Source of the DNA: Candidatus Altimarinota bacterium
GTDB taxonomy: Bacteria; Patescibacteriota; Gracilibacteria; BD1-5; UBA6164
DNA length: 51,109 nucleotides
Direction of reading: 5' to 3'
NCBI GenBank assembly: GCA_028696815.1
Contig: JAQVGG010000007.1
Span: forward strand, 1 to 51,109
Position numbers and translations under genes: made by a program. Below the pieces are notes generated by a model that searched no databases, had not been told where the DNA came from, and was given only the letters and a program-made list of their open reading frames with translations. Shown one piece after another: positions 18,852-43,702 of the stretch. Position 1 is the first letter of the stretch; every line of letters begins with the position of its first letter.

Positions 18852-20447
18852 TTAAACTAGTTCTCAAGTTAATATATACCTATCCATTCAAGTAATTTTT
18901 ACTTTTACAAGATCTCAGATTTTTATTTGTTTTTCCTTAATTTCTTCCTTTGATGTCAAAGGAAGTGACTCGGAATGTAATGGAGAGTCGATGGATTTAG
19001 AAATAAATACTTCCTTGAAATTCCTAGTCCTACCAAAAAAATATCAATCTTTTTCTCAAGAAATAAGTATTTCCTCTACTTTATCTAACATAAGATTATT
19101 TCTTTTACTTATATTTTCAAGTAGTTTATCGTTTAGTATGTGCCATCTGTTAGCTTTTACTGTATCGCTAATATCATCTGGGTATAATTTTGCAGCAATA
19201 GTTCCAGGTCTTACGGAGTATCTAGCATTGTATGTAAAATCAAATTGACACTCTTCAAATGCTTTTAATGTCTCATTAAACATAACTTCAGTTTCTCAAG
19301 AAAATCATACAATTATATCAGTTGATATTCAAAAAGAAGGATCTTTGCTTCTTAGATAATTAACCATTTTTTTAAAATCTACATATGAATGTTTTCTGTT
19401 CATCTTCTTTAGCATATCGTCACTTCAAGATTGTAGTGCAAAATGCAAGTAGTTACAAGTTTTATCAAGTTCAAAGTGTGCATCAAGTATATCTTGAGTC
19501 ATATCATGGGGATTACTTGATGTAAATCTAATTCTATCAAGTCATTCTATCTTATCTAATTCTTCTAATAGTTGTCTAAATGGAGACTTAAATCAATCTT
19601 CAATTGCGAATTTTCAATTACGAATATTATTGTTATTTGAATTGTCTTTTTCGTAATTCGTAATTTGTAATTTTGAATTGTTTGTATTCCACTTTCCTTT
19701 TTCCTCATTCCAGTATTTTCTATCTATCCATTGTTTTCAGTATGAGTTTACATTTTGTCATACTAAAGTTATTTCTTTAGCTCATGCTTTAACTGCTTCT
19801 TTTGCTTCTGAAACTATATCTTCTATACTTCTACTATTTTCTTTTCATCTAGTATAAGGTACTATACAATAAGAACAATAATTATCACATCCTGTTTGGA
19901 TTATTATACTAGCTTGTGAAGGGTTTTCTCTTAGTTGTTTTGCTTTTAAATAGTCATCAAACTTATAATCAGTTCAAATAGGCTCTTTAAATATATGAGT
20001 AAGTATTAAAGGTAAAAATTTTGTATCTTCAATTCTTAGTGTAAAATCAATTGTTTCACTTCTTGGGAATAGTTTGTCATCATTGTTAAATATAGCACTT
20101 TGTTCTTTAGCTATTTCTATTTTTTTAGCTCTATTTCTCTTTATTTCTCACTCTAGATGTTTGCTTGCAAGTCATGTTTTTCTAACCATACAACCTGTTA
20201 TTCAAACAGTTATTGGTGATTTTCAGATTTGGACTCTATTTTTATTTTCTTTTTTTACTTCATTTATCATTCAAAATACTCTATCTTCTCATTTTTGCCT
20301 TACGCTACATGTGTTAAACACCACGATATCAGCTTTACTCCACTCAGACGCTTTGATAAATCATGATTGAAGTAAAATCATGTTAAGTTTTTCGCTATCA
20401 GCCTGATTCATAGCGCATCAAAATGTTTGAAGAAAATATTTTTTCAT
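18852..20447 (-). CDS. miaB: tRNA-2-methylthio-N6-dimethylallyladenosine synthase MiaB, 531 aa
   Basis: Radical-SAM methylthiotransferase modifying A37 of tRNAs. Order: N-terminal MTTase domain ([37 protein letters not shown] and TGCMVRKTG provide the three Cys for the auxiliary cluster), radical-SAM motif [20 protein letters not shown] (CxxxCxxC), then LVGQNVNSYG, and [52 protein letters not shown], and a C-terminal TRAM domain ending [19 protein letters not shown]. At 531 residues it is about 60 longer than E. coli MiaB; roughly 40 extra residues follow GQNVNSYG and are encoded partly by an inverted-repeat element. ATG 20447 starts with [11 protein letters not shown] exactly as expected. 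Confidence 0.95.
19601..19680. repeat. Palindromic element inside miaB (family 1)
   Basis: Arms 19601-19625 and 19656-19680 are inverted copies matching at 19 of 25 positions, built from AATTACGAAT/AATTTG-type words. It is in frame and encodes a polar, Asn-rich segment ([19 protein letters not shown]). A half-copy of the same word family lies at 45064-45082 upstream of dnaB. Confidence 0.75.
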
Positions 20448-33535: not shown

Positions 33536-34594
33536 ATGATGCAAGATGAATTAGATAAAAATTTTTTAGAAAAGCTAAAAAATATCTATTCAAAAGAAGA
33601 ATTAGATATTATTTTTGCTTGATTTAAAACTGAAAAGAGAAAGGTTACTTTCAGAGTAAATACACTGAAATCATCAAACGAAGAAATAGAACAAGTTTTA
33701 AATAACGATAACTTAAAATTTGAAAAAATATCTTATTTAAAAAATGGATATAAGCTAGTAGATTGAAAAGAAAAAGATCTTTGGGATTTAGATATCTTTA
33801 CTGATTGAAAGATATATATGCAAGGGATAACAAGTCAATTGATTGGAGAGATTGTAATGTTTATTTGTAGTTATTGTCATCCTGAATCTATTTCAGGATC
33901 ATTAAAAAGTAAAAATACAAATTATGATTCTGAAATAAATTCAGAATGACAAGATATTAAGATTCTTGATTTAACAGCTGCGCCAGGGGGGAAAACAAGT
34001 CACATAAGTGCCTTGCTTGAAAATAATTGAGAAATAGTTGCAAATGAAAGTAATACAATCAGATTTGATAAACTTAAATTTACAATTGAAAGACAGTGAT
34101 GTAAAAATGTAAAGCTAGTTAAATGAGATGCAAGAGAGTTGAAAAATACTTATTCACAATGATATTTTGATATCATCATTGCTGATCTACCTTGTAGTGC
34201 AGAGTGAAGGATAAACTTACATAATGAAAAAACTTACAAGTTTTTAGAGAAAGAGTGAATAAATAAAAGAAATTACAAGCTCCAACAGGATATACTAAAA
34301 CACGCTATTTCCCTATTAAAACCTTGTTGAACTTTGATTTACAGTACTTGTACGCTTGATCCACTAGAAAATGAAGGAATAGTTCACTATTTACTTTCAA
34401 ACTATCAAGAATTAGAAATAGTAGATATAAATGATGTTTTTAAAGATGAAAGTATAAAAAAATATACTAAAGCTTGAATAAAATCTTACTGAAAACAGAT
34501 TTACAGAAATGAAGTTCAAAAGGCTGTAAGACTGCTTCCAAGCATTGAAACTGAATGATTTTTTGTAGCTGTGTTAAAGAAAAAGATAAGTTAA
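33536..34594 (+). CDS. NOL1/NOP2/RsmB-family RNA m5C methyltransferase, 352 aa
   Basis: SAM-dependent cytosine-C5 methyltransferase acting on rRNA or tRNA. Core motifs: RVNTLKSSNEEIEQVL ('RvNtLK' start of the domain), YMQGITSQLIGEIV ('qd.aSql'), SAM motif I KILDLTAAPGGKTSHISALL, motif III EIVANESNTIRFDKLK, motif IV IIIADLPCSAEGRI with the P-C catalytic-pair Cys, and motif VI GTLIYSTCTLDPLENEGIVH with the T-C nucleophile Cys. The C-terminus QIYRNEVQKAVRLLPSIETEG ('.R..P...dGFF.a') is normal. Between QLIGEIV and motif I there is an extra segment of ~25 residues encoded by a palindromic repeat. Two consecutive ATGs (33536, 33539) could start it. The N-terminal NusB domain of RsmB is missing, so RsmF/YebU-like or RlmI-like placement is open. 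Confidence 0.9.
33875..33951. repeat. Palindromic element inside the RsmB-like gene (family 2)
   Basis: 27-bp arms 33875-33901 and 33925-33951 are inverted copies with 3 mismatches (TGTCATCCTGAAT.../TGATTCTGAAAT...), with 23 bp between. It is in frame and codes HPESISGSLKSK and DSEINSEG, located just ahead of SAM motif I. Confidence 0.85.
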
Positions 34595-34625: not shown

Positions 34626-34889
34626 CTAAATAGTTCAACTTCTTATTTTATCAGCTAATAATTTAGCATCATTAGCATCTTTTAGAGCTTGAATAGCTGG
34701 ATCTACTGATCTAAGAGAATTACTTTCCACTAGAGCTTGAATAGCTGGATCTACTGATCTAAGAGAATTACTTTCCACTAGAGCTTGAATAGCTGGATCT
34801 ACTGATCTAAGAGAATTACTTTCCACTAGAGCTTGAATAGCTGGATCTACTGATTCAGCTGAATATGATTCTCACATTGTATTTACCAT
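34626..34889 (-). CDS. Small repeat protein, 87 aa
   Basis: From ATG 34889: MVNTMGESYSAE, then copies of the 16-residue unit SVDPAIQALVESNSLR (four SVDPAIQAL cores), and the tail KDANDAKLLADKIRSGTI. The nucleotide repeat is exact between units (48 bp), so the expansion is recent or kept identical by recombination. Each unit is predicted to be a helix followed by a turn. There is no signal peptide or Cys. The unit number could change by slippage or unequal recombination and alter protein length. Family unknown. It lies between convergent (RsmB-like) and upstream flippase genes. Confidence 0.8.
34684..34851. repeat. 48-bp tandem repeat, ~3.5 copies
   Basis: Units start at 34684, 34732, 34780 and 34828 (the last is partial, ~27 bp). 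The first three are identical. They are adjacent without spacers and 48 bp keeps the reading frame. Confidence 0.92.
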
Positions 34890-42247: not shown

Positions 42248-43702
42248 TTATGGATTATAAATGTATACAATTTTGCTTCAAATTTCAAATTCTCAAGATA
42301 TTACATCTCATACTTTTACCTTATCATAATCATCGACCTCAGGAGCTTTTATCTCAGGTCTAACTATTAATGTTTTTTCATCAATTATATCATCTATATA
42401 TCAAACTTGCTCTTCTCCTACTCTAATATCATCTTTTTTATCATATATATCATTTAATACTTTTTTCAGCCTTTTTAGTCTATCTCTTATAGTTTTATTA
42501 TCTACTTTATTTTCAAGTTTTGAGCTATCTGCAAGAGGTTCGTCATGATATCCAAAAACTGAAACACTATCAAACTCGTATCTTTTCGCAAAATTAAGAA
42601 GTTGTTCAAAATCATCTTCTTTTTCTCATGGAAATCAAACAATAAAGTTTGTATGTAAAAATGGTTTATTAAATTTTTCTTTTATATAATCAAGTAGTTT
42701 AAGAATATGTTTATCATCATAAAATCTTCCCATATTTTTTAAAACAGTTGGACTTATATGTTGAAATGGAAAATCAAAATAAGGAAGTAGTTTTTTGAGG
42801 TTTGCAAGTCTGTCTATATGGGATAAACTAAGTATATCTGGATACATATAAAATAACCTTATTTTGAAGTCTCATTCAAGCTTATCTATTTCCTCAAGTA
42901 GCTCTAAAAGTTTAGGGGCTTTGTATAAATCAACTCAATATCTAGTTGTATCTTGAGAAATGATTTCTATTTCTTTTATTCAACTATCAACCATGATTTT
43001 TACTTCTGTGAGTATATCTTCTATTGTTCTTGAGGTTTGTTTTCATCTTATATTTGGAATAATACAAAAACTACATTTGTTATTACATCATTCTGCAATT
43101 TTTAAGTACTCATATCATTTATCAGCATGTAAAAATGCTCTAACAGATTCACTTCAGTAGATATATGCTTTTGTATTGATTTGATCTCAACCTATTTTTG
43201 ATAAGTAAGATTGTAGTTTATCTTTTTTGAGTTTGTAGAGGTTGTGTTTTAAGTTAACACCTCATCCTCAATCCTTCTCCTTCAAAGGAGAAGGAGGTAG
43301 AATATTTTCTTGTCCCCTCTCCTCTCAAAGGAGAGGGTTAGGGTGAGGTATCAATATCTCACTCACATTTTTAACCTCGCTATAAGGTACAACAGCTTCA
43401 AGGTTTTTTAGTCAAGATAAAAACTTATCATCTTTTACAGGTACATAACAACCAATAAGTATAACTTTTTTTCATATATGGTCATAGTACCAGATAGTCT
43501 CTTCTGCTTCGTCTCTGGAACTAGATAAAAATCAGCATGTGTTTATAATCACATACTCTACCTCTTTATCCTCTGGATCAGGAAAAAAGTTGATTTGATT
43601 TTCTTCTGAATTTAGTTTTAAAATCTCTCAAAGAACAAATTCTGTATCAACAGTATTTTTACTACACCCGAGATTTATAACTGAAAAATTTATTTGTTTC
43701 AT
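42248..43702 (-). CDS. rimO: Ribosomal protein S12 methylthiotransferase RimO, 484 aa
   Basis: Radical-SAM enzyme that methylthiolates Asp of ribosomal protein S12. MTTase domain: INFSVINLGCSKNTVDTEFV ('slGC.kN.vDsE'), YVIINTCGFLSSSRDEAEET ('.vNTC.Fi..a..Es...i'), VILIGCYVP. Radical-SAM motif: [20 protein letters not shown] ('.KIaEGCn..CtFCiIP.irG'). Then EIEIISQDTTRYGVDLYKAP ('e..li.QDtt.YG'), FRLFYMYPD, PYFDFPFQHISPTVLKNMGR ('Y.D.PlQH....vLk.M.R'), FIVGFPGEKEDDFEQL, a TRAM domain with EEQVGYIDDIIDEK and the end GEFEIGSKIVYIYNP. The QDTTRYG and QH motifs separate RimO from MiaB. An extra in-frame segment of ~30 residues follows VSEIL and is coded by a palindromic repeat (43258-43350). Confidence 0.95.
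43258..43350. repeat. Composite palindromic element inside rimO (family 3)
   Basis: Outer arms ACCTCATCCTCAATCCT and AGGGTTAGGGTGAGGT pair imperfectly; inside are two hairpins, 43273-43294 (CCTTCTCCTT/AAGGAGAAGG) and 43315-43337 (CCCTCTCC/GGAGAGGG). It is the most GC-rich stretch around and encodes a Pro/Gly-rich insert (PHPNPLLGEERGQ, PPSPLKEKDGGG). Confidence 0.88.

Follow-up and report, generated by a model that had tools for sequence, protein, structure and literature searches.

The stretch of DNA analysed here (the window) covers 51,109 nucleotides of a Gracilibacteria genome, G000, which has a size of 1.19 Mb in 41 contigs, is 98.8% complete with a contamination estimate of 6.24%, and uses genetic code 25. 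In this code UGA specifies glycine rather than a stop. The window carries an rsmB-like gene, an intact ORF of 352 aa with 14 in-frame TGA codons, one of which falls at a conserved glycine position. The encoded protein matched Pfam families PF01189 (E = 3.7e-43) and PF17125 (E = 5.5e-9), and its top NCBIfam matches were RsmB/RsmF, yet under the equivalog cut-offs. The methyltransferase motifs AAPGGK, DLPCSAEG, and YSTCT are all intact. A second RsmF-type paralogue is found on contig C25 of the same genome (L345), no RsmB homologues were found among viral contigs, and an Rfam scan of the window returned RNase P as its sole match.

Within this gene lies a 77-bp palindromic element that is read in frame, and two further genes of the window, miaB and rimO, hold inserts of other palindrome families, here called B and C (Table 1). 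Other repeats were also observed in the window. Just 3' of the rsmB-like gene, a 48-bp unit is repeated in tandem approximately four times within a small reading frame (34655-34846). At 1192-1273 and 2225-2306, an 82-bp direct repeat (98%) brackets an ORF (1378-2184) that looks BRO-N/antirepressor-like by eye, and the flanking repeat resembles a gene start duplicated by insertion.

Table 1. Coordinates of the host gene, the parts of its insert, and the two other palindromic inserts of the window
Feature	Position	Strand	Remarks
rsmB/rsmF-type 16S rRNA m5C methyltransferase gene, host of the insert	33536..34594	+	code 25
Element, two GTCAT-type REP hairpins predicted to form an inverted dimer	33875..33951	.	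77 bp; translated as residues 114-138 (CHPESISGSLKSKNTNYDSEINSEG)
Left REP	33875..33902	+	tag TGTC, stem ATCCTGAA/TTCAGGAT 8/8 Watson-Crick, loop TCTAT, tail CAT
AT-rich spacer between the REPs	33903..33923	.	21 nt
Right REP, inverted	33924..33951	-	stem ATTCTGAA/TTCAGAAT 8/8, loop TTTAT, tail CAT
TGA codon in the right tag	33947..33949	+	Gly 138 in code 25, stop in code 11
Family C insert in miaB (18852-20447)	19593..19682	-	approximately residues 256-285; most relatives lack it
Family B insert (PHPNPLLGEERGQE...) in rimO (42248-43702)	43256..43342	-	about residues 121-149

The element inside the rsmB-like gene

The preliminary description reported a palindrome with 27-bp inverted arms and three mismatches, and such arms are indeed present at 33875-33901 and 33925-33951. 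Two matches to the 25-nt arm pattern were found in the window, compared with none in 100 dinucleotide shuffles (expected 0.00). When folded as single-stranded DNA, the element reached z = -6.1 relative to shuffles, none of 200 shuffles folding as well. The layout TGTCATCCTGAATCTATTTCAGGATCAT - 21 nt - ATGATTCTGAAATAAATTCAGAATGACA can be read as one long palindrome or as two separate hairpins. Each hairpin pairs perfectly internally (8/8 and 8/8), the match across the arms is 18/21, and of the three arm mismatches two are compensated within each hairpin while the third lies in the loop. Single-stranded DNA could also fold as one long palindrome, yet these compensatory changes favour two hairpins, and we therefore interpret the element as an inverted dimer of two REPs. 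The inverted arms first described are thus real, and the single long palindrome is not retained.

Arms from elsewhere in the genome follow the same general plan, with a TGTC tag, an 8-bp stem (ATYCTGAA/TTCAGRAT), a 5-nt loop, and a CAT tail. Among them, 95% of the stem cells are paired and nine are double-changed, a level that none of 500 shuffles attained, and the pairing was destroyed when the partner columns were slid. Pair 7-23, for example, is U-A in eight and C-G in six of these arms, and over all loci it is CG in 335, TA in 142, and mismatched in only 13.

On translation, the left REP reads CHPESISGS, and the right REP, of which the antisense strand is translated, reads YDSEINSEG. The right tag, TGTCA, appears as TGACA on the other strand and contributes an in-frame TGA, so that the right arm reads EGQ. 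The frame is kept throughout the gene, and the roughly 25 added residues proposed at first proved to be a net insertion of exactly 25 residues (75 nt) relative to the two closest relatives (L062 and L063, approximately 61% identity). A homologue was found in 59 of 60 relatives, with orthologue matches stopping near residue 107 and resuming near residues 137-142, and all 14 aligned relatives lacked the segment. At the DNA level, comparison of the flanks with L062 and L063, which are only about 61% identical, showed the added 75 nt and no visible target duplication. The insert directly precedes SAM motif I (ILDLTAAPGGKT), a position that, given what is known of this fold, should correspond to the loop ahead of the first Rossmann-domain strand. 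A single-sequence AlphaFold2 model of the protein had a mean pLDDT of 31 and was discarded.

Dispersal of three palindrome families

A search of the genome by BLAST and by pattern placed the element, which represents family A, in at least 13 places, so it is not unique to the rsmB-like gene. The full length of the rsmB insert is matched with 85-89% identity by three intergenic copies at other places of the genome. Dimers were found on contigs C1, C36, C18, C25, C22, and C7, the other places holding a single arm, and the copies of C36 and C25 have a spacer similar to the 21-nt spacer of the rsmB element. Most copies are intergenic, for instance between rpsI and rpsL, and many copies of the family sit just 3' of genes. 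Only three of the 13 places are inside ORFs, namely the rsmB-like gene, an alpha-2-macroglobulin-like gene (C40, L010), and an 855-aa ORF with no Pfam match (C36, L015), which suggests that most coding insertions are still purged.

Outside this genome, the arms are present in 37 of 77 genomes of the same order, with 0 to 71 per genome (a reversed-pattern control gave 0), and in 50 of 380 genomes of the phylum. The same dimer pattern was detected in at least 118 stretches, drawn from named genomes of several phyla, including Novosphingobium and other sphingomonads (Alphaproteobacteria), Rickettsiales, Flavobacteria and Pedobacter (Bacteroidota), Ignavibacteria, Sulfurovum, Nitrospirota, and many Patescibacteria. 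Rickettsiales/Rickettsiaceae MAGs (L117, L140, L168) are among them. Searches of phage and plasmid collections with the element gave no match.

It had also been proposed that three different palindrome families occupy rsmB, miaB, and rimO. This holds: the families are distinct and dispersed, and the inserts are missing in relatives (for miaB, in most of them). Most matches of miaB relatives end at residues 254-257 and resume at 283-288, and family C is dispersed in the genome. Far longer in-frame insertions were observed at the same place in three miaB relatives (L433 of G001, L437 of G007, and one in G037), with ORFs of 676-699 aa. The rimO insert is absent in, for example, G003, G005, and G008. 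Another arm pair returned by the repeat search in rimO (42756-42885) is ordinary coding sequence and was rejected as an insert.

Family B, with the palindrome TSPQPSPLEERGQE / PHPNPLLGEERGQE, was found at rimO and in 25 further copies in the genome (loci including L342, L346, L347, L351, and L476), and 23 of these 26 are inside ORFs compared with 1 of the 15 family C copies examined; random window positions fall inside ORFs in approximately 70% of cases. In addition to RimO, its hosts, named from Pfam, are UvrD, RseP, RsmF, RNase R, IleRS (twice), RlmN, MnmA, ThiI, Lgt, RecG (twice), Tex, TsaD, SufBD, and PriA, and many of the host genes are conserved housekeeping ones. Family B probably makes a stronger case than the rsmB element itself.

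Two sites recur. In IleRS, a family B insert of this genome (L347) and a family A insert of G023 (L240) lie at the same residue, after GAMPYASKHYPF, where the IleRS of two other genomes (L144, L285) has no insert. In PrmC, a CHPELVSGS insert immediately precedes SAM motif I, corresponding in position to the rsmB insert, in both G023 (code 25, L234) and G219 (code 11, L409). The IleRS and PrmC sites were thus each hit twice independently.

Reading frames and the genetic code

To compare intragenic copies between genetic codes, we used copies from ten code-25 relatives, whose code was deduced from ORF coverage, from twelve code-11 Patescibacteria (CPR), and from a mixed code-11 set from the search of other phyla. 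A cluster was considered intragenic when inside an ORF no shorter than 200 aa, with flanks of 40 aa. Intragenic clusters accounted for 42 of 96 in code 25, 10 of 70 in code-11 CPR, and 4 of 117 in the mixed set, while approximately 60% of random positions fell inside such ORFs in both Patescibacteria sets. The difference between code 25 and code-11 CPR is significant (Fisher p = 4e-5), yet spurious ORFs inflate it: reading the code-11 CPR loci in code 25 raised their count from 10/70 to 19/70, so the code-25 excess is partly spurious. With only Pfam-flanked or Pfam-internal insertions retained, the counts (approximately 18/96 in code 25 and 10/70 in code 11) are not clearly different. Most of the gap in intragenic rate between the codes disappears under this strict count, on which the frame-use difference described below does not depend. 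The code-25 cases are also phylogenetically clustered, with G023, G031, and G044 giving most of them and G063 none of eight.

According to Pfam, the code-25 intragenic hosts include RsmF, RsmG, EarP, PrmC, QueA, IleRS, ArgRS, CysRS, Mfd, UvrC, Mur ligase, acetyl-CoA synthetase, and ATP-citrate synthase. In pairwise comparisons, the inserts of IleRS, CysRS, and others were missing in relatives, and one orthologous pair (L245 and L257 of G023 and G031, proteins 74% identical) keeps its insert at the same site.

The number of frames without a stop is three per arm in code 11 and six in code 25. Only CHPELVSGS, VILNLFQD, and ILKQVQDD are open in code 11. Since UGA is read as glycine in code 25, the frame DSEINSEGQ/DPETSSGGQ, closed in code 11, becomes open, which widens the choice of frames compatible with the survival of an insertion. 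Among 50 intragenic code-25 arms, 22 use this frame (21 with TGA as glycine) and 18 use CHPELVSGS; an in-frame TGA occurs in 27 of the 50. The 21 intragenic code-11 arms comprise 12 in CHPELVSGS, nine in ILKQVQDD, and none in TGA frames, the zero being expected by definition. The ratio of DPETSSGGQ to ILKQVQDD is hence 22:3 in code 25 versus 0:9 in code 11, with stops in the tail and spacer also biasing frame choice. DPETSSGGQ is the most hydrophilic frame (GRAVY -1.44) and takes the place of ILKQVQDD, as would be expected if the surviving insertions were chosen as harmless linkers. The rsmB insert uses the same pair of frames, with a CHPELVSGS-type left arm and a DSEINSEGQ right arm. We tentatively propose, with somewhat more doubt than confidence, that in Gracilibacteria the reassignment of UGA lets mobile palindromes supply translated linker peptides throughout the genome, DPETSSGGQ replacing ILKQVQDD and family B being no longer excluded from genes.

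Origin of the insert and relation to known repeats

The insert is very probably a non-autonomous inverted dimer of GTCAT-type REPs (CGTC superfamily) that entered the rsmB-like gene. Such an element would move as hairpin-forming DNA through a recombinase whose gene is not adjacent to it. It would land at random and most coding insertions would be lost, the survivors being those that landed in a loop, added a multiple of three bases, and brought neither TAA nor TAG. In the rsmB-like gene, the insert would be translated, most likely as a tolerated peptide of polar, linker-like character, situated in the loop that precedes beta-strand 1 of the Rossmann fold, and the enzyme carrying it may still work.

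Four other explanations were considered. The insert could be a useful change, kept by positive selection, in enzymes of RNA modification or translation. The preliminary description had pointed to the concentration of inserts in RNA- or ribosome-modifying enzymes, and this focus receives some support, as 9 of 10 insertions in code-11 CPR are in translation-related hosts compared with 2 of 10 random ORFs (p = 0.005), although few random ORFs were sampled and secreted proteins are abundant among them. The repeated use of the same sites, in IleRS by families A and B and in PrmC in both code 25 and code 11, would also fit. However, tolerant loops in conserved cytosolic multidomain enzymes predict the same recurrence and enrichment, and most copies in this genome are intergenic, making an adaptive origin unlikely. 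We consider equally improbable that the element acts at the RNA level, as an mRNA hairpin affecting stability or pausing, with its translation incidental. Its hairpins are strong, and the frequent location of copies just 3' of genes agrees with that reported for REPs (PMC3733652). Inside the rsmB-like gene, however, the ribosome must read through the element, and two of the six open frames take 40 of the 50 code-25 arms (p ~2e-11, the arms of a dimer not being independent), which points to selection on the peptide. A decaying pseudogene, or an assembly or binning artefact, is very improbable: the 41 contigs, the contamination estimate, and the paralogue on C25 would leave room for one, but the 352 codons and all motifs are intact, the protein is 61% identical to L062, a TGA falls at a conserved glycine position, and the family is found on many contigs and in independent genomes. 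Finally, an ordinary lineage-specific expansion of an RsmB loop, with no mobile origin and an incidental palindrome, is hardly credible: relatives do differ by a few residues at the site before motif I (L066 has 3 aa more), but the dispersed copies, with 85-89% identity to three intergenic ones and the dimer in other phyla, already refute it.

For a long time, in-frame palindromes were regarded as peculiar to Rickettsia, and later to a few REP-rich genomes. What is new here is their presence in a lineage whose genetic code differs, where, depending on the family, from 1/15 to 23/26 copies are in frame within genes. The preliminary description knew of no report of such elements in code-25 bacteria, and we found none in the open-access literature, most subscription journals being outside this scope. 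The elements let one ask directly whether a codon reassignment alters the mobile DNA that a proteome can absorb. Sites that took up an insert on two occasions, from different families or in distant lineages, offer natural replicates for the study of new protein loops. On the practical side, inserts of this kind can lead gene finding, domain annotation, and metaproteomics astray in code-25 bacteria.

The inverted, tagged hairpin dimers of the GTAG REPs or REPINs, which RAYT (TnpA-REP) mobilises, resemble the rsmB element in being dispersed and non-autonomous. Those systems have a GTAG tag and a RAYT gene flanked by the repeats, whereas the rsmB element has a TGTC tag and neither feature. Among 22 Y1_Tnp loci, only one had an element copy in its flanks, approximately 0.7 kb away, several element-rich genomes are without Y1_Tnp, and no transposase or other mobilising enzyme was found for the element. 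The sole Y1_Tnp (RAYT-like) gene of this genome (L091, G000:C11:27918-28271) is flanked by GGTACCGGTACC repeats and not by the rsmB element. A RAYT is thus not supported as the mobiliser. Of note, L091 itself also contains GGTACCGGTACC palindromes, translated in frame (GTGT, VPVP).

The CGTC-tagged REPs offer the closer parallel. They carry a CGTC tag, with TGTC as a variant, a stem of 8-9 bp starting with AT, a loop of 4-5 nt, and a short unpaired tail, most commonly CCA. They occur mostly as inverted dimers, in which unlike stems are common, have no dedicated or linked transposase, and include some intragenic copies (PMC3733652). The aligned arms of this genome have the TGTC tag in 17 of 17 cases, a stem of eight pairs (columns 5-12 with 18-25) in which columns 5 and 6 are always A and T, a 5-nt loop in the 17 A1 arms (longer in two further arms, on C18 and C22), and a 3-nt tail that is CAT in 15 of 17 rather than CCA. 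Of 102 dimers taken from other genomes, 61 have unlike arms. The element is thus classified, on its sequence anatomy, as an inverted dimer of GTCAT-type REPs with features of the CGTC superfamily, sharing the 8-bp stem and 5-nt loop, the TGTC tag, the AT-initial stem, the presence of a tail, the inverted dimers, the lack of a linked transposase, and the intragenic copies. It differs in its CAT tail and in its lineage, the reported hosts being Proteobacteria, Chlorobi, Bacteroidetes, Spirochaetes, and Thermotogae, with Patescibacteria not listed (PMC3733652). Unlike the published CGTC REPs, its arms can be read through TGA as glycine, which is not possible where TGA is a stop. An adaptive role for inserts in repair genes has been the subject of speculation (Di Nocera, De Gregorio and Rocco 2013; PMC3733652).

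The first comparison drawn for this locus, with the Rickettsia palindromic elements, is sound and can be refined. In both cases, palindromes lie in frame within housekeeping proteins that are unrelated to one another, RNA-modifying enzymes among them. RPE-1 forms a longer palindrome, whereas the rsmB element has 77 bp and two hairpins, in a host that is not Rickettsia. RPE-4 and RPE-6 of R. conorii are members of the CGTC-tagged REPs (PMC3733652), and it is these, rather than RPE-1, that the element resembles in its anatomy.
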